A stretch of 64,000 nucleotides of DNA, taken from Coptis chinensis. Its lineage: Eukaryota > Streptophyta > Magnoliopsida > Ranunculales > Ranunculaceae. Below, one piece after another: positions 14,815-51,198 of this stretch; the stretch's first letter is position 1, and every line of letters starts with the position of its first letter. The position numbers and the translations under genes were made by a program. The stretch spans positions 17,880,501-17,944,500 of the forward strand of contig CM027377.1 of the NCBI GenBank assembly GCA_015680905.1, read 5' to 3'. The notes beneath the pieces are model-generated. The model was not told where the DNA came from and did not search any database. It saw only the letters and a list, made by a program, of their open reading frames with translations.

Positions 14815-16092
14815 AAGAGAAGTCAAAAGGAATAAAAACAAGAGATAAGATCGAGAAAAAGCACCTCTTTGATTGCAGCCGGCATTGCTTGCTTCCACTT
14901 CTGGGCTAGGTAAAAGAGAATAAGCTTGCGGTTAGCTTACCTTTTTCCTTGGGATCTATTTCTTGAAAAGGACAGCGGAAATATCTGCTGATATAACATC
15001 AAGCGTTGATCCTATCCTTGCTATGAGCACTCTTGGCCTACGGTTCAGACCAACAGTCAGATAGTGGTGGAACGATAAACCTCCGAGAAGGAATTCTAAC
15101 CCTTTTCTTTTGCTACCGCTTTTTAACTAATCATATTAAACCGGATTGCTTATCCAAGAAAGTATACTATACATTACTTAGACAAACCCTCAAGGATCAG
15201 CTTTATTCTCATCTAGTTTTCGGCAATTGAATATTATCAGCACCCTTCCCTATGGCTGGCTATCCTCTCCACATGAATAACCTTTCTGATTTGCTCAAAT
15301 GAGTTCTTTCCTTCTCCGATAACGGGTGACCTGAGCTGCGATTTAATGCCGCGTAAAGGACAGAAAGAAAGACAAGGGAAGTGACCACAGGAGCTTGGGC
15401 TCAACCAGCCATTTTGATAATCTTTGGCTCCCAATCGAATCGGGATGGAGATGGAGGTCCGTCAACGCAAGGCTTCATTTCTATAGATGCTTTGAATAGC
15501 CCATAATTTCTATTCCAACAAGCAAGTAAACCAACTACTCACTTAGGAAGTGAAGTAAGTAAGCCAGATATAGTTCAATTCTATGGGCGGGAATCCAATC
15601 TTTCATTAATAGACTGACCTTCATAAACATCTTATTCTAAAAATGATAGGACGAACTCTTTCATTGAATTCCTAAATCACTCTCCTGCCCCAAAATCCCC
15701 TAACTTAGGAAGTGAAGCCCGAACATTCCTGAACTTTCTAAGTTCAGCTTTGAAATCCCCCTTCACGTAAGATATGCCCCCCCTCTACCACCTTCCACCA
15801 ACTGCTACGCTTTATGGAGGGCGCCATTGCTAAGTCTTGGTTGCTGGTTTAGTCCAAAAGGAATGCCTTTGCTTTCGCTTGATTCGAACCATAAAGGGGT
15901 TGGTACCGTGGTGCATCACCCTTTTAACATAGGACCGATCGCCCGGCTGAAGGTGGAGAGTCAGAAGCAACAGGAGAACCAACCCAAGCCTAAAATAAAG
16001 TGCGGTTTGTTTATTCAAAAATAAGCGAAAGGATTGCTTAACGAGCAAAGAACAATACAGCAGATGCACATCGCCATCAATTAAACCTCTAA
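14815..16092. other. Mitochondrial-like non-coding stretch
   Basis: No gene is recognised. TTAGGAAGTGAAG recurs near 15543 and 15706. The stretch ends at the TAA target site (16090-16092) of the inserted DNA transposon. Confidence 0.4.
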
Positions 16093-16208
16093 GAGCATCT
16101 TTAGCAGAGCAACAAAAAAAACACCAAAATTTTGAACCAAACCAAACACCAAACCAAAAAAACACCAAACAACTTTAGGAGCAACATAAAAAAAAACACC
16201 AAGCAACT

Positions 16209-16302
16209 ACGCGGTTTTGCCAAAACCACGCCACTAAAGCCCAACTGACAAGCCCAAGCCCACGCGGTTTTGGCAAAACCGCGCGGTGTTCAGAACACCG
16301 CG
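16209..16302. repeat. Left subterminal palindromes of the transposon
   Basis: GCGGTTTTGSCAAAACCRC-type palindromes lie at about 16209-16230 and 16262-16283. A related one, CGCGGTGTTCAGAACACCGCG without its last base in either arm, follows at 16282-16302. Matching palindromes sit at the right end, so they are candidate transposase-binding repeats. Confidence 0.75.
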
Positions 16303-16311
16303 TGCTACTTC

Positions 16312-16319
16312 TATATAAA
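16312..16319 (+). promoter_or_regulatory. TATA box of the PMD gene
   Basis: TATATAAA lies just inside the subterminal palindromes and about 110 bp before the ATG at 16428. The promoter therefore belongs to the transposon. Confidence 0.5.
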
Positions 16320-16427
16320 CAACTCCAAAGCCGCGCGGTTCAGTCACTTTCACCTCTTCTCACAATTATAAAACCCTCTCTTTAGTTAAAAAAAAACAAA
16401 AACCTACCTAAACTCTTAAAATTTGAT

Positions 16428-18626
16428 ATGGATCCTTTTGAACCTTTCGACGGTGATGATTGGCGATTAATGAGGCGACATTGGCGATGAGGAAGTAGAA
16501 TCTGGTGGGGAGAAGCGATTGGGGGGAAGAAGAATCCGTGGATGTCGCCTACCGATAGACATCTCTATGTCTTTCGGAGTATCGGATGAGCGACTTTGAT
16601 TGGCAATTTGCACTGGAGAAACACTTGATATGGAAGTTGTGTCTTACTACGTGATACAAAACACATGTCGAGTCGCGGTGGCTAATACTCAGGTAATTAA
16701 TTAGTTTTGATTAAATATTTTAAATATTAATTAGTTAAGTTGGACCAATTAATTATTTATCTTATACAAATTATTTTTTTTTTATAATATCAGCATGTTG
16801 TTGACTACCGAGTTAGATCGGCTTTACTTGGTGTTAGAGAGTAGTAGAAGGTTATTAGGAGTTTGGATGAGTTTGTACATATTAGAGATAGTATTTTGTA
16901 TACACCTTTGGGTATTTTGATTGATAGGCTGATTGGGCAATGGTCATAGCTTTAGTAGAAAGATGGTGGAGTAGAACTCATACATTTCATTTTCCTTGTG
17001 CGGAGTTAGGGTTCACACCACTAGAATTCACTATGATTTCTGGGTTGAGTATCGGTATAGGCCAACCGATACCTTTTCATACAAATTATGAGAATATGGA
17101 TAGTATGCTTATGAGTTTTTTTCGTTTGGGTGCGGATGCTTATGATTCTTCTGGGATTAAGCTATCTCATATTAAGATTGCATATATGGAACCCTTTTGC
17201 ATCCCCGATACACGAAGCGGAGTTAGCTTTGATCGCTCTAGGGTAGTGAGGGTCTCGTCGATTATATTAGGACTTTTTGATGTTTTTATTGGGCATGTTT
17301 TGTTTCCCAATGGTCATTCTACTGACGACCGAGATATTATGCTTATGTATCCGATTTGCATACTATGAGAGATTATGACTGGGTAGCTCAATTATATGCC
17401 ACATTGATATCGGCGTTAGATAAAGCTTCAAAGACATTCGGAAGTAGAAGTCCTCGAGTGCGGGATTCATGGGATTTTTAGAGATTTGGTTTTATGAGTA
17501 TTTTCGATGTCTTTGTCCTAACATAGACATGATTGCCGATACTCGCCCCTAGATTTGCTAGTTGGTCGGGGCCTCACTTGACTCGTAGAACAGGCGATTA
17601 GGAATAATATCTGTATGGCTCGTGGCTCAAATTGATATTAGATCATTGTCATCTATTAAGTGGAGACCTTGGCGTTTGTCATCGCCTTTGACGATCCAAT
17701 ATGACAAAGCATGCTTGTGTGTTGTCACGTCCACGAGTTGTTTTGCCAAGACGGGATCGTCGAGGTTTGAATCGTGTGCAAATGATGTTGGAGGCGGATA
17801 TTTGGGCGTTATGGAGTTCCATGTGCTCCCATGCGGATGTTAGTGATGCAAAGTCGTGGGGTAGAATTCAAGTTCATGAAGTTCATGCCGGTGGTGGTCT
17901 TTGGCGGATCGTCTTCTTTTGTTATTGAGCGAGGCTGGCGATCGATTATTATAGATGGTGGAACCGCAGGTGTCTCCATGGGTTGCATTTGTTGCCTCTC
18001 GTTGGTCGGGCTAGCAACTTCGAAGTTTGTGGGCCTGGAAGGGATGAGGCGTGAACTACGTATTCCTCATCCGCCATACCGCTTGTTTACAACCCACAAC
18101 CTTTGAATGCATATCGGCCGGCCGGTTCCGTAATGCGCGGTAATCTTGGATGTTTGCGTGTGTGTGTGTGGGGATGGGGAGACTACTTATATTTCCATTC
18201 CCGAGGTGCCTCATGCTCGTTTCTCGAAGTTAGAGCATATTGATCGATTATATCATGGTGAGTTTAATTGTTTTATTTATCTTCTTCATTATATATATAA
18301 TATGTACTCATTTGTATTTTCTTGGATTTTCGGGCTAAGATTCGGGAGAGATATGAGAACCGAGGTTCTTATGTTTGATGGGATGAGGGGCGCCTGTATC
18401 ATTATAGCCAAGAAAGAGGAGGCATATTCTTAGACATATCGGCAATCCCGGCGTCGCGTTATGCGAGACTTCGAAAGCGTATGAGGATATGCGACAAAAG
18501 TGTACACGCAAGAACATCGAGGGATATGAGGAACTTCAGTGAAGTAGTTACCTCGCGTCGCAGGCGAGAGAAGATCATCGGGCCTCGGATTAGGAACTTA
18601 GAGGAGGCGGCCGGAACGCCCAAATA
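16428..18626 (+). pseudogene. Plant mobile domain (PMD/MAIN-like) protein, decayed
   Basis: The first ATG (16428) opens MDPFEPFDGDDW. An intron at 16693-16793 has GT-AG ends. After it, HVVDYRVRSALLG and SLDEFVHIRDS lead into the open piece 16940-17368. There ALVERWWSRTHTFHFPCAELGFTPLEFTMISGLSIG matches the PMD signature (ALVERWRPETHTFHLP then EDVAMLTGLPIDG in relatives; shown here in parts). Later fragments keep the family's order: YDWVAQLYATL near 17365-17400, then PRDRRGLNRV and MMLEADIW near 17750-17810. PMD proteins include Arabidopsis MAIN and MAIL1, nuclear proteins linked to transposon silencing and genome stability, and transposon-borne copies. Frames shift several times after 17368, so this copy is non-functional. 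Confidence 0.75.
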
Positions 18627-18910
18627 GAGAGAGGAGAGGGATCGAGTGGAAAAGTAAGAAAAGAGCTAAATAAATTTGATGTAATATGATAGGTTTTGGA
18701 TTATTTTGGATATTATATGATTATATCATAATCATAGATTTTGACTGCATAATCATAATCATAGGTTTTAATTTCTTTAATTTTTTTCGATTTTGAATTA
18801 CAATTCTTAATTTCTTCAATTGCACAAATGTTAATTTCTTAACTTCTATGCACAACTCATAATTTTTCAAGTTCTATGCACCACAGTTCTAATTTTCAGA
18901 AAAAACGCAA

Positions 18911-18995
18911 CGCGGTTTTGGCAAAACCGCACCCATTGAAGCCCAAGCCCACGCCCATTTAGCAGCCCAAGCCCACGCGGTTTTGCCAAAACCAC
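18911..18995. repeat. Right subterminal palindromes of the transposon
   Basis: GCGGTTTTGGCAAAACCGC occurs at about 18912-18930. A slightly diverged copy with the centre TTGCCAA occurs at about 18975-18994. They mirror the left-end set. Confidence 0.75.
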
Positions 18996-19115
18996 ATGAG
19001 TGATTTGATACAGCACCAAACCTGGAACCAAATATTGGTCGATTTGGTGTTTGGTGTTTTTTCTGAGAATTTGGTGTTTGATGCTAGGTTGATATCACTG
19101 CTAAAGATGCTCTAA

Positions 19116-30841: not shown

Positions 30842-31852
30842 TTACTCTTTTGGAAACAGTTGCTCACGAACAACATTGTGAGTTTTCCCAAAAAGTAGCT
30901 TCTTCACCGACTCAAAAGCCATATCTAACCTCTCAAGCTGTTCCAAAGAATTCTTGTTGTATATAAACAAGCCATAGAAGAGTTCAAAACTATCCCCCGA
31001 TGTATTGCTTACTAAATCCAACAATGACTCATACCCTTTGGTGTTTATCGGTGTCGATTCCACTCCAAACTTCTCCAAAGTCCTTCCCATTACATGTGTT
31101 ATAAACTGAGATTCCGCAGCATGCCTGTCATGCTCCCCACAAGACATCTCCTTCATATTACATCCCTCTTGTGCAAAAATATTGAGAAACCTATCACAAC
31201 GATTTATTCTGGACTCCTCAATCCCAATTCTCACTTTCTCATAAACAAAATTCAGACCCTGCCAACCATCTCTACCACTTTCTGGTCCAAACATAGGATG
31301 AGTACATAGAATATCAAACTCAGGTGGCAGAACTTTAAGAAACAAATCTCTAGGAAACTCCTTAACAGAAAGTACATCAACAAAAAGAGTACTTCTCTTC
31401 AAGCGTTGAAATGGGATGGACTGGAGAACAGCTTTAGTTGAAACTATTGATGAGCACAGAAGAATTACCTCCGGATGCTCTTCACAGAGATCATTCGGAT
31501 CAGGGAAGAAGGAAACACCCAACTCCCGCGCAACATCAGAATAATCGGATCGAGAGTAGGCTAAAACAGTATGTCCTTGTTTTAATAAGGTTTTAGCAAG
31601 AAACTGGCCAAAATTGCCGAATCCAACAATGCCAATCTTCAGCCTGGTGCTCTTTTCAAAGTGTTCATAGCTCTTAGCTTCCAAATCAAAAGGCTGAGCG
31701 GCATCGATAGCTCTAACTATGAGATTTGGAAAATAACAAGTTTGCATTTTTTTGTAGTTGAATGTAAAAATCTTGGGCACTGAACAGGTACACAATGAAG
31801 AAGGTATTACTCTTGTTCTCGGAGGTTGTTGCAGACAAGTAAATGAGAGCAT
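30842..31852 (-). CDS. Arogenate dehydrogenase, plastidic, 336 aa
   Basis: Catalyses NADP-dependent oxidative decarboxylation of arogenate to tyrosine in plastids. One uninterrupted exon. Residues 1 to about 65 are rich in S, T, P and basic residues and look like a transit peptide. The Rossmann nucleotide site GFGNFG is at 77-82, with AYSRSD (98-103) after the second strand, suited to NADP. The TyrA core motif THPMFGPESG lies at 184-193, and HDRHAAESQFITH at 241-253. The aspartate at 242 is, from memory, at the position where arogenate-specific enzymes have Asp and legume prephenate-specific ones have Asn; this needs an alignment. Length fits the short plant arogenate dehydrogenases of about 340-360 aa, which are usually intronless. 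The start is chosen because it gives the full transit peptide and no upstream in-frame ATG is needed. It is divergent from CYP23, with 147 bp between start codons. No damage seen. Confidence 0.93.
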   Translation of the reverse strand: MLSFTCLQQPPRTRVIPSSLCTCSVPKIFTFNYKKMQTCYFPNLIVRAIDAAQPFDLEAKSYEHFEKSTRLKIGIVGFGNFGQFLAKTLLKQGHTVLAYSRSDYSDVARELGVSFFPDPNDLCEEHPEVILLCSSIVSTKAVLQSIPFQRLKRSTLFVDVLSVKEFPRDLFLKVLPPEFDILCTHPMFGPESGRDGWQGLNFVYEKVRIGIEESRINRCDRFLNIFAQEGCNMKEMSCGEHDRHAAESQFITHVMGRTLEKFGVESTPINTKGYESLLDLVSNTSGDSFELFYGLFIYNKNSLEQLERLDMAFESVKKLLFGKTHNVVREQLFPKE

Positions 31853-31999
31853 CTTCTTTACAAAAGAACAAGAGGAGGATAGACACTTCCTCTTTTCTTG
31901 TTCGTCTTTCGGAAACTCGGACCGGGCTTAGACCCAATGGACTCTCTGATATTACAATACTATATTAACTGAACTGAAAGCTAACAAACCCAAAAGAAA
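31853..31999. promoter_or_regulatory. Probable bidirectional promoter, arogenate dehydrogenase and CYP23
   Basis: Only 147 bp separate the two start codons, so 5' UTRs and core promoters of both genes must overlap here or extend into the neighbours. Visible elements are CCCAAT at about 31932-31937, a TATATTAA-like stretch near 31960-31968 on the CYP23 side, and an imperfect inverted repeat, GAACAAGAGGAGGA (31866-31879) against TCCTCTTTTCTTGTTC (31886-31903). No strong TATA box faces the arogenate dehydrogenase gene. Confidence 0.6.
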
Positions 32000-38356: not shown

Positions 38357-41300
38357 ATCTTAAGGAAAGATCAAGATGTCTACACTGTTGACACCACGCC
38401 CGATCAAAGAAACCAATGCGAGTCATGGAAGTAACTTCGTCTATGAGAGATCTTTGCACCTCTCTGAATGCTCGCGAATTTACCCAATGTGTCAAAGATT
38501 GAATCCTTTAGCGGTTCACACTTGGCGATGGAGAGAAAGGGTGTTCACAGCCCTAGATGTACTCAACTATGCAAAGTATCTCATCGATAAACACCCATGG
38601 AGGGTTCTAATGATTTGAAAGAAATCAAGCCGCTTGGCTCAATGGGAATAAGGTATGTCGTCATGCTATTTTGAGTACCTTGTCAATGAAATTTTTGATA
38701 TTTATTGTTCAAATAAGAATGCACATGATATATGGGAGAGTTTGAACAAGAAATACATAATAGAGGATCTTTGGTACTTTCGAAATATGCTATTGGGACT
38801 TTTCTAAAGTTCCATATGAGAGAGGATAGAGATGTAACGCCTCAAATCCATGATTTTCATGTCTTTGATTAATGATTTGAAAACCGAGGGTATTAATTTA
38901 CGAAACCTTTGTTCTTTGGATGTTTGATTGAGAAACTCCCCGAAGTCTTGGAAACACTATAAAAATAGTATGAAGCATAAGCGTAAGCAGATGACTCTTG
39001 AGGATATGATCATTCACATTCACATAGAAGAAAAGAACAAGACTCGGGATGAGGTGTTGTCTAAGGAATTCCATTCTAAAGCCAATATCATTGAAGGTAA
39101 TCCCAACAAATCTAATAAAACCTCTAAGAAGCAGAAGTCCAACAAAAATAAGAATTTCAAGGTCAAAGGCACTTCTTTTAAAAGGAGTGGTACTGGCAAT
39201 GGAAATTGTTATGTTTGTGGTAAACCCTGGACATAGGGCTTTTCGGTCCGGATACAAGAAAGACACGATGATCCTCCCAATGCTAATCTAGTTGAGGGAG
39301 ATTATATTGTTCTTCTTTGTTGTGTCACAAGTGTTCATAGCCTTTGGGAAGAGGAACCGGGTACTAGATTACGGTGCCACCCGCCGTCTGTGGTGATGTT
39401 GAAGCCTTCTCGGACTACATACTAGTGAAAGATGAAAAGGTCTATATGGGTGACTCTAGGTCTGTTCTGTTGAGGAACAGGGCAAGGTTCTTCGAAGAAG
39501 TTAACCGGGGAAAACCCTTTCACTTAGTAATGTTCTTCATGTTCCCGAGATTCGTTAGAATCGATTTTCGTGTCCCTCTTGGGAAAAGTCGGCCAAGGTG
39601 ACTTTTGAGAGTGACAAGTTTGTTCCGACAAAGAATGAGGGTTTTGTTGGTAAAGGTTATTGTAATAACAAATTGGTCTTTTCATGTTGAATGTACTTGA
39701 CAACATTATTATTAATAAGAATGAATTATACGCTTACTTGCTTGACTCTTTTAATATATGGCATGGTAGACTAGGACATGTGAATGTTCAGTATATGAAA
39801 AGGATGAAAGCATGTGGTTTATTGTCTAATATTTTTTATTTTTCTAATGATAAATGTGAGATATGTGCTGAGACTAAAGCCACGAAGAAACCCTGTAGAA
39901 CTGTGTCTAGAGATAAAACTGGATTACTAACTCTTATTCATACGGATTTGGGTGAATTCAGAAGTACCATGTCTAGAGGGGGGAAGTTTTATTATATTAC
40001 ATTCATAGATGATTTCTCTAGGTACACCATGGTATATTTACTTAGACACAAGCATGAGGCAGGTGAGATGTTTCTCAAGTACAAAGCTGAAGTTGAAAAC
40101 CAGCTTAACTGTAAGATTAAGAGACTTCGGTCTGATAGGGGTGGAGAATATGAGTCTAACCCCTTCTAGGACTTTTGTGACAAGAGTGACATTATTCATG
40201 AGTCCTAGCCTTGATGTTGTGAGAAACACCAAGATGTTTTTATCCTCCCAATTTGAAATGAAGGATTTGGGAGAAGCTGATGTGATTCTTGGAATCAAAA
40301 TCATCGAGAAGCTTGATGATGGTTATCTGCTTTCAAGAGCATTATGTTGAGAAGTTTTTGAATAAGTTTAACTTTTATGATAGTAAGCCCGCGTGTCGAC
40401 ACCTTATGAGGCAAATAGTGAACTTGGAAAAATGCTCAACATGATGTACTTCGATCTAGATATGCCCAAATTATTGGTAGTCTCATGTACTTGATGAATT
40501 GCACTAGACGACATTGCTTATATAGTTAGCGGGCTAAGCTGAGGATACACTCATTGTCCTAGCCGGGAACATTGGAGTGCCCTTAGAGACTAGCCAAGTA
40601 CTTGGGAGGAACAATGAATTACGGCATAAGGTTTAGACAAACTCCCACTGTGATAGAGGGTTATTGTGATGCAAATTTGGATATCGATTCTCATGATATC
40701 AAGTCCACTAGTGGTTATATTTTCACCCTAGGTGGAGGTGCGATCGCTTGGAAATCTTCTAAGCGGACCTTGATAGCTCGTTCAACCATGGAGTCAGGAG
40801 CTTATTGCTTTAAATAAAGCAAGTCTTTGGAAAGTGGCTTAGAAACCTCTTGGCGGATCTTCCTATTGGTACAAAACCGCCTCCAATTTGTACCTATGCA
40901 TTGTATTTGTCGGTATGATAGCAAAGGCAAAGAGCAAATTGTATAATGGGAAAAGCGGACATATTAGATGCGAGACTACGGTCTATAAAGCATTTCTTTG
41001 GAATCTGGAGTTGTGGCTCTAGATTATGTGAGGTTAGAGTTAAATTTGGCCGATCCTCGACAAAACCACTTAACAGGGGAGACAAGTGGTTGATATGTCG
41101 AGGGGATGGGACTTTGCCTTAGATAGAGGGCGACGGCGGCAACCCCACCTATGTGATTGGAGATCCCATGAAGTAGGTTCAAAGAAAAAAACAAGTCATC
41201 TAAATTCTCACGGTATGCTATTGTCTTTATTTAAGGCGTCCCTTTATGACTAGATAGCATTATTGTATACTTTGTATAACTTGAATAGCAATGAGAAAAA

Positions 41301-49430: not shown

Positions 49431-50001
49431 AACACTCTACTCAAACAACTCAACTCGCATACAACTACACTCTCAATATCACCAAAGCAAGGTAGGGGTC
49501 CAAGATGGACGAACAAAGAAAACATTGCTCTTACTAGAACATAGATTGAGATGGGAGGAAATCTTATAATAGGAAACGATCAATCAAGCCAAGTTTATTA
49601 GGAACAAATTAAGATTAGGATGTGTGAAATTTAAGGTTTTAACAAAAACCGTAAGTGGAAGGGAGTCTTAACAACGTTGGGTACATTTTTTTACCGTTCT
49701 TGAACAAATATCAAGCCATACTAAAAAAAAACTTGAAAAACAACCTCCAAGTGGGTGGGGACGTGAGGACATTGTAAGATTTGACAAACTTGTTTAATTT
49801 ATATTTCATTTTCTTTATGTTTTTACTATAGAGTATTTGATATTAATATTGATTTTGATTTTTTTTATAAATGTATGTAGCTTAACGACGCGACAACTAC
49901 TTATGCGACTACCACTGGGAAACTATGGGCGTGGCAAGATTGTTATAACCTAGTCAAATATACGCCAAAGTGGCAAAGAACTCAATTACGCAACGAAACT
50001 C
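49431..50001. other. Non-coding stretch upstream of a decayed gene
   Basis: AT-rich. About 49890-50001 may hold the preceding part of the decayed frame that continues at 50002 (peptides such as DCYNLVKYTPKWQRTQ can be read near 49935-49985), but no domain is certain. Confidence 0.35.
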
Positions 50002-51198
50002 TTGCAGCAAGACCAAAAAAAGAAGCAAGATCAGGAGATCTGGAAGGCTTTGATTTTTCACCATCAACCCTCGAGGCCTCACTTTCCCCAACTTCTCGAA
50101 GTCCGCCCTTCACTTTATCGAATCACGACCTCTAGTAGTATTAAATGTTTCTTAGAGACATCCATTAGCAAGAAGCAAAGCAAAAAAATCGAGAAGAAGA
50201 AAGTGGCTTATATTGTCGATGGTAATGTTGCATCTACTGCAAAAAATCTTGATGCTTTTGTTGAGTCGTTTAAAGAAAGTCGCGGACATAAAGAAGAGAT
50301 TCTAGATTGGCGGTTTCAGGCTATGATGAGATTGAAGCAAAGAAAATAGATAAAAGTTATTTTTAAAGCAAGAAAAACTCCGTTATAGGGATTTTTTTGA
50401 GTATCCCCCGATCCTCCCTTGCCTTGTGATTGAGAATCTTTTTCTTGATAGAGAAGGGGTGAGATGATTTAGTATTCAGGGTTGAACCGCCTGGCGGCTG
50501 CCTACGTATCTCCTTGTTGATTTAGAAGAATCAAACCCTATTTTGCGTCGTTCCTAAGAGCAAATCCCTATGGTTTATATAGGAAGAGCCTTGAGAGTCC
50601 TAGGGTTAGGGTTAGGGTTAGGTTTAGGGTTAGGGTTTACCTCACCATTTGTGAGTTCCCTTCCATCTTTGGACTATGCCTTCCTATTAGGAATTCTCTC
50701 CTTATGGAAGTCTGAATCTGGACCATATCTTATTAGAGGTAGGTTTCCTTGTTGGTCATAATATCCCATCACTTTTGGGAAGATTAGATCTAAAAGTAAC
50801 TTTTAAAGATATGTCATTCTGATTTCTTCCTTATCATCAAAGATCGCCCTCTTCAGTTTTCTTCTGTTCAGAAACTGGCTTTATCAGTTCCTAACGACTT
50901 GGAGAACTGGCATATTCATAGGCGGGTCGTCACGTGACTAGCACATGCTTACGACACACTCATGATAAACACGAAATAACTTATTCTAATAACTAATCTG
51001 ATGGTTCTCATCTTATTCCAAGTATCCATAGTCCTAGGTCATTTCCCATACATGTGTCATCTAATCAATGACAGGAAATCCCCCTTACAGATGATGAGAT
51101 TGAAGCAAAAGAAGACAGATAAAAAGTTACTTTTAAAGCAAGAAAAACTCTGTGTTAGAGAGGAGGAAAATGATACTAGATTATATTATTGGCAATGA
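50002..51198 (+). pseudogene. Decayed lysine-rich gene split by a 0.7-kb insertion
   Basis: The piece 50002-50349 ends KKIEKKKVAYIVDGNVAST, then ILDWRFQAMMRLKQRK. About 750 bp further, 51091-51198 repeats the end (MMRLKQKKTDKKLLLKQEKL) and runs on to a stop. The repeated DNA (50325-50385 and 51091-51155, about 60 bp, diverged) flanks the insert. The protein resembles in style the lysine-rich C-terminal region of NAM-associated or SANT-like proteins that often accompany Harbinger transposons, but I cannot name it firmly. It could equally be a host gene remnant. Not functional as it stands. Confidence 0.35.
50600..50638. repeat. Interstitial telomere-like repeat
   Basis: A run of TTAGGG and TTTAGGG units, six in about 39 bp, plus-strand orientation. 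It lies inside the insert that splits the decayed gene. Confidence 0.9.

Follow-up and report, generated by a model that had tools for sequence, protein, structure and literature searches.

The stretch of DNA analysed here, hereafter the window, comprises 64,000 nucleotides of Coptis chinensis (assembly GCA_015680905.1, contig CM027377.1, positions 17,880,501 to 17,944,500 of the forward strand) and contains, amid plant gene and transposon content, a transposable element that carries a gene for a plant mobile domain (PMD) protein (Table 1). The perfect 15-bp inverted ends at its limits, GAGCATCTTTAGCAG and CTGCTAAAGATGCTC, the TAA duplicated on either side of them and the TATA box TATATAAA within the left part had been recognized in the first-pass annotation and are confirmed, as is the lack of a transposase, since neither the transposase nor the NAM-type protein of the partner elements introduced below finds a match in the window copy. 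The intron-containing PMD gene reported at the same time stands as far as the ATG and the match to the PMD domain PF10536 are concerned (frame 16928-17368, E 5.4e-9, 36.1 bits at a cut-off of 34.9), but the gene is broken as assembled. An Rfam scan of the window gave no matches at gathering scores.

Table 1. Parts of the PMD element in window coordinates; fractions refer to the 46 loci described in the text.
Feature	Positions	Strand	Basis
Target-site duplication TAA, left	16090..16092	.	read from sequence
Terminal inverted repeat, left, GAGCATCTTTAGCAG	16093..16107	+	count of the TWA plus inverted-repeat pattern in the genome
Left end, common to the transposase-bearing L049-L053	16093..16307	+	sequence comparison
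TATA box TATATAAA	16312..16319	+	identical 8 bases in 28/46 loci
Leader up to the ATG (16428-16430)	16320..16430	+	alignment and shuffle test, L059 vs L050
PMD gene, exon 1	16428..16692	+	early stop in the window copy
Intron 1, GT..AG	16693..16793	+	GT in 43/46 loci, AG in 32/46
Exon 2, PMD domain PF10536	16794..18257	+	majority frame of 43 copies open, 490 codons
Intron 2	18258..18333	+	GT in 37/46 loci, AG in 26/46; acceptor of the window copy reads GG
Exon 3 to stop; charged, coiled-coil-like C-terminus	18334..18673	+	by eye (translation of L059; window sequence)
Right end, common to transposase-bearing and short gene-less elements	18860..19112	+	sequence comparison
Terminal inverted repeat, right, CTGCTAAAGATGCTC	19098..19112	-	read from sequence
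Target-site duplication TAA, right	19113..19115	.	read from sequence

Is this element a solitary capture or a member of a family? In a search of the 936-Mb genome its first 301 bases returned 1553 candidates, 40 of them scored, in 41 match rows, one of which is just a 31-base piece. The resulting set of 46 loci consists of the window copy, 39 left-end matches and six loci chosen by their PMD, and, having been selected by likeness to the left end or to the PMD, it leans towards PMD copies. Exact duplications, defined by a right end with at most three mismatches and by the same TAA or TTA flanking both ends, are found in 28 of the 40 left-end copies (the window copy included) and in five of the six PMD-chosen ones, hence in 33 of 46; the copies without them are L009, L012, L013, L019, L023, L024, L027, L032, L033, L037, L040 and L045 among the 40 and L062 (taa/tat) among the six. 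By protein match PMD sequence is present in 45 of the 46 loci, the exception being L009, and exon 2 reaches at least 600 bases in 43, the exceptions being L009, L028 and L040. The TAA/TTA sites expected of further copies are thus there, and the two outcomes that had been named as speaking against the first-pass reading, duplications of 8-9 bp and copies mostly without the PMD, were not seen: the duplications are of 3 bp, and PMD sequence is kept. Moreover, this PMD type is encoded at 65% identity or more in at least 114 places (114 scored of 3592 candidates). A single chance capture at one locus, which retains next to no probability, is refuted by these many copies. Two of them, L022 (C1:6255269) and L023 (C1:6054730), lie about 200 kb apart with the same flanks and represent a single insertion copied together with its surroundings in a segmental duplication. 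A genome search for an empty site with the 303-base left flank of the window copy found that flank complete nowhere else and in part at seven other places.

The ends can also be counted free of this bias in selection. The 18-base pattern of TWA plus end, TWAGAGCATCTTTAGCAG, occurs at 284 genome sites and its reversed counterpart at none, which places the end pattern beyond chance. Among the 100 sites listed of these 284, 21 pairs face each other at distances of up to 12 kb, and in every pair the duplications on the two sides match; by length these pairs comprise five of 344-492 bp, nine of 3020-3215 bp, six of 3418-3559 bp and one of 5987 bp. The three pairs of the 3020-3215-bp class that were read (window copy, L011 and L038) all carry the PMD. 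Transposase and NAM-type protein occur together in all five longer elements read, four of the six in the 3418-3559-bp class (L050-L053) and the 5987-bp L049, and none of the three proteins matches the four short elements read out of five (L054-L057).

The elements L049-L053 have the same 15-bp ends as the PMD element and similar subterminal sequence. In L050, with ends at 237 and 3763 and TAA on both sides, a 459-aa frame matches PF04827 (E 6.9e-91) and PF13359 (E 9e-14), and the opposite strand encodes a NAM-associated protein (PF14303, E 7.5e-8), a domain also found in L049, where the frame L049:565-996 is without a Pfam match. Transposases of the L050 type are encoded in at least 95 places (95 scored of 2637 candidates, all of which matched). 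By protein match the PMD is absent from all ten loci L048-L057, the partner's transposase and NAM-type protein are each absent from all 46 loci of the PMD set, and no locus combining PMD and transposase was found among those read; with its own transposase lacking throughout the 46, the PMD element is not autonomous. The assignment to the PIF/Harbinger type, proposed in the first pass, holds on account of the 3-bp TWA duplications, the ends in common with L050 and the Plant_tran/DDE_Tnp_4 transposase of L050, which is also the transposase-bearing relative with the same ends that this assignment had led one to expect. A PMD-carrying MULE is expected to show 8-9 bp target duplications and a MULE transposase, and a MULE or gypsy element is ruled out by the 3-bp duplications and the Plant_tran/DDE_Tnp_4 transposase of the partner. 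Taken together, transposase-less PMD copies and transposase elements with the same ends point to a non-autonomous PIF/Harbinger family of many copies that L050-type proteins would, judging by the homology of the ends, most likely move in trans; the probability that both parts hold is put at about 0.85.

Three further sequences were noticed alongside. An open 525-aa DDE_Tnp_4 frame (L048:1863-3437), the top score of the genome scan, was rejected as a partner because no family right-hand end lies beyond it within the 7.6 kb fetched; the frame is not enclosed by these ends, ends of the PMD-element family lie about 0.5 kb upstream, and it is perhaps a domesticated gene of the HARBI1/ALP1 type. The 6-kb transposase element L049 holds an extra 256-aa frame without a Pfam match (L049:3193-3960), perhaps inserted sequence. 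Within the window, positions 49923-50063 match the partner's NAM-type protein weakly (40% identity, E 6e-7) and are perhaps another Harbinger remnant.

In L059, from which the gene model was taken, the gene starts with the ATG, is split by two GT-AG introns and ends with a charged exon. Of the 46 loci 43 preserve the ATG, and the numbers for the splice sites are given in Table 1. The PF10536 scores of other copies amount to 93.4 (L029), 105.3 (L058) and 84.7 bits (L059), and Pfam reports nothing but the PMD in the three exon-2 frames scanned. In the window copy exon 1 contains, by eye, an early stop, and exon 2 is interrupted by frameshifts and stop codons; in L059, too, a stop interrupts exon 1, and exon 2 is shortened. 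None of the 46 copies was shown to have a PMD gene that is intact throughout; the majority exon-2 frames of two subfamilies are open. An AlphaFold prediction on alignment A1 was unusable (mean pLDDT 32), and a profile search of the PDB gave no matches up to E 10.

How much of this breakage is real? With respect to CAG+CTG and indel counts, exon 2 spans two extremes with intermediates between them, copies such as L044, L060 and L062 having about 40-53 CAG+CTG and 4-15 indels, and copies such as L013, L042 and that of the window having 10-25 CAG+CTG, more CG and some 25-45 short indels. Of the conserved sites, the window copy retains one of 18 CAG and four of 12 CTG intact, as against all control sites (TAG 28/28, CAA 7/7, CAT 26/26). 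In the other copies of its set CAG has turned into CGG (82 cases), lost its A (38), or become CAA (36) or TAG (18); as CGG and loss of A exceed CAA and TAG, the cause is not mainly deamination, and CGG is gained in PMD copies alongside the loss of CAG/CTG. Twenty of 40 indels of the window copy lie within two bases of a CWG at 20% coverage, compared with five of 40 for TAG/CTA at 21%, so that about half of its indels are unexplained by CWG; a stricter CWG site set gives 12 of 43 at 14% coverage, and 26 of 40 lie near any CHG at 28% coverage. In the duplicated pair L022/L023 the flanks differ at two of 300 bases on the left and 18 of about 1400 on the right, while the two copies of the 3.1-kb element differ at 204 positions (113 substitutions and 91 indels); 74 of these positions lie near CHG, which covers 16% of the sequence. 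Across 36 copies, the CWG level of the element does not track that of its flank (rho -0.12). Along the window, the observed/expected ratio of CAG/CTG is 0.28-0.49 in the 2-kb bins at 1, 16001, 38001, 40001, 54001, 56001 and 58001 and 0.50-1.04 in the remaining bins; it is 0.09 in the copia RT frame 261-719, 0.83 in the integrase frame 39669-40169 and 0.77 in a host-like gene. (A 361-aa open frame at 30842-31927 on the minus strand, with a prephenate dehydrogenase nucleotide-binding domain, PF02153 at E 1.8e-9, is likely a host gene.) By this sequence pattern the CAG/CTG lesions look like miscalls at CHG-methylated sites that were left in the assembly; alternatively, a real CWG-directed mutation process may have produced them. 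Because many of the lesions fall on CAG/CTG, much of the breakage of the window copy has the look of an assembly artefact and not of decay, and its broken frame as assembled should not be trusted. If the miscall reading is true, the assembly alone carries a methylation footprint.

Was the PMD frame under selection? The first tests disregarded assembly error in the copies. Comparison of shared with private changes gave p 0.075 for N:S, 1.0 for codon position 3 versus 1+2 and 0.047 for stops, and the transposase control of this test was not significant. In a tree-based test w was 0.70 on internal versus 0.84 on terminal branches (p 0.02) with stops depleted on internal branches (p 0.01), the transposase control (21 copies) giving 0.55 versus 1.15 (p 0.004); restricted forms of the PMD test gave p 0.2 for once-seen changes, 0.2 for transversions and 0.16 for well-supported branches, and wrong-frame controls showed no internal depletion. 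The analysis was repeated on 13 signature-poor copies (8 + 5), chosen after the first results had been seen, with 30 of the 43 copies dropped. Among these 13, the fixed differences between the two subfamilies number 24 N : 13 S where 27.0 : 8.4 are expected (w 0.58, one-sided p 0.08), and these 37 include no stop where 1.6 are expected. Private changes follow expectation closely (256 N : 77 S against 256.7 : 77.0, w 1.00; 21 stops against 20.3), and fixed versus private N:S differ with p 0.11. Once CHG and CpG are masked, the figures become 17 : 7 for fixed (w 0.77, p 0.35) and 168 : 36 for private changes (w 1.29). In pairwise comparison between the subfamilies, 12 of 16 pairs have a dN/dS of 0.52-0.79 and the other four, all of which involve L019, one of 1.3-1.8, and within the first subfamily all six pairs exceed 1. 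The more diverged L089 yields 0.58-0.65 with six of eight copies, 0.86 with L062 and 1.06 with L019. The private w of 1.00 together with the between-subfamily w and dN/dS figures points to a frame that was neutral after insertion and probably weakly constrained before, a result that is suggestive only.

Where did the gene and its promoter come from? The first-pass annotation had proposed that a silencing-related host gene was captured with its promoter. In the alignment the first 215 bases or so are common to PMD and transposase elements, the TATA-box stretch differs between them, and thereafter the leader through ATGGATC is similar again in both. The leaders of L059 and L050 align with a local score of 87, while 500 dinucleotide shuffles average 32 and reach 55 at most. 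By this homology the PMD gene appears to have been joined to the transposase leader, an event that we infer from the alignment. The sequence from below the TATA-box stretch as far as the ATG is thus the transposon's own, and for this part the proposal of capture with a promoter is not supported. As to the host gene, the PMD of the element is 23-28% identical over the aligned domain to L085-L088 (L059 has no match to L086) and 26-30% identical over 46 residues to L084, whereas L085-L088 share 33-62% among themselves (six pairs). Going by these identities it is a distant branch among the PMDs compared in the genome. No donor gene was seen among the best-scoring places ranked and the five other PMD fragments compared, and identities of 23-30% to the latter support neither a recent capture nor an origin from MAIN/MAIL.

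The explanation we favour is that of a non-autonomous PIF/Harbinger family that L050-type proteins would move in trans. Its PMD gene, of three exons, would occupy the place that the transposase and NAM/Myb-type genes have in the partner, behind a leader with homology to that of the transposase gene. We hold with moderate confidence that during the spread of the family the PMD gene encoded a protein under weak selection, and consider only weakly, because Arabidopsis PMD proteins act in silencing, that this protein may help the element family against host silencing. The family could instead have arisen when a Pack-type element took up a PMD gene as a passive passenger, the protein being useless to the element and the ends alone driving the spread. 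The neutrality of private changes, the lack of a fully intact copy among the 46, the recurrence of some frameshift positions among copies (confounded by assembly error) and the spread of the short gene-less L054-L057 with the same ends all agree with a passenger, but the open frames in two subfamilies, the stop-free fixed differences with w below 1 between them, the near-universal presence of PMD sequence in a set selected in part by likeness on the PMD side, and the wide conservation of ATG and splice sites do not, so that this account falls somewhat short of an even chance.

The PMD protein could also interfere with host silencing of the MAIN/MAIL type and so aid all members of the Harbinger family, much as VANC aids Vandal elements; that the gene might help the element evade host control had been suggested in the first-pass annotation. 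Both MAIN and MAIL1 take part in silencing, a counter-silencing use of transposon PMDs has been proposed (PMC5418596, PMC8616336, in the passages available), and other epigenetic genes, SET and TET, ride on Harbingers outside plants (PMC12730594, likewise in part), but many copies, the window's included, carry the CWG signature read as dense CHG methylation, and this account, though plausible, seems rather unlikely. Unlikely, too, and to be put forward only as a speculation, is a fuller version, a three-part Harbinger system of transposase elements, PMD satellites and short gene-less elements with common ends, in which a trans-acting PMD protein of the satellite, expressed from a transposase-type leader, would disturb PMD silencing of the host to the benefit of the whole family. 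A role of the PMD protein as an accessory factor of transposition, in place of the NAM/Myb-type protein, would fit the position of its gene, which in the partner is that of transposase and NAM-type genes, and its transposase-type leader, but the exon-2 frames scanned returned nothing other than the PMD from Pfam and both transposase and NAM-type protein are present in the genome, and we regard it as very improbable.

How does the element compare with known systems? It resembles PIF/Harbinger elements that encode a Myb/SANT-type protein in its TWA duplication and short inverted ends, and its partners L049-L053 have the Plant_tran/DDE_Tnp_4 and NAM-type genes, but the window element has neither gene and carries the PMD gene instead. 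According to the passages available of Ikeda et al. (PMC5418596), PMD-A occurs in Ty3/gypsy elements and captured PMD-C in MULEs as transposase-PMD fusions, for which an anti-silencing use was suggested, and a review gives the same account in the part available (PMC8616336). As there, a PMD is borne by a transposon; unlike there, the superfamily is another one and the PMD is unfused, alone and on a non-autonomous element. With Pack-TYPE elements, Pack-PIF among them (PMC8903248, available in part), it shares inverted ends, coding sequence inside and the lack of autonomy, and it differs from them by a multi-exon gene common to a large family and by the absence of a donor among the places ranked. 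By analogy it may also be set beside VANC of Vandal MULEs, oomycete HarbingerS with SET and fungal Harbingers with TET/JBP (PMC13317346 and PMC12730594, both in part), in which an epigenetic or anti-silencing-related gene lies on a transposon, although here the gene is a PMD and sits on an element separate from the transposase. In the passages available of the literature matches listed, including PMC8616336 and PMC4583175, which name both topics, no PMD-bearing Harbinger is described.

PMD proteins tie transposons to silencing in flowering plants and have, in the passages available of PMC5418596, been described on gypsy elements and MULEs. A Harbinger satellite of many copies, with a PMD gene as its sole gene behind a transposase-type leader, would add a third kind of transposon to these. 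Moreover, since the same ends exist with a transposase, with a PMD and without a gene, the effect of the PMD can be separated from that of the ends, and the PMD element together with its transposase-bearing sisters offers a way to ask what a PMD does for a transposon.
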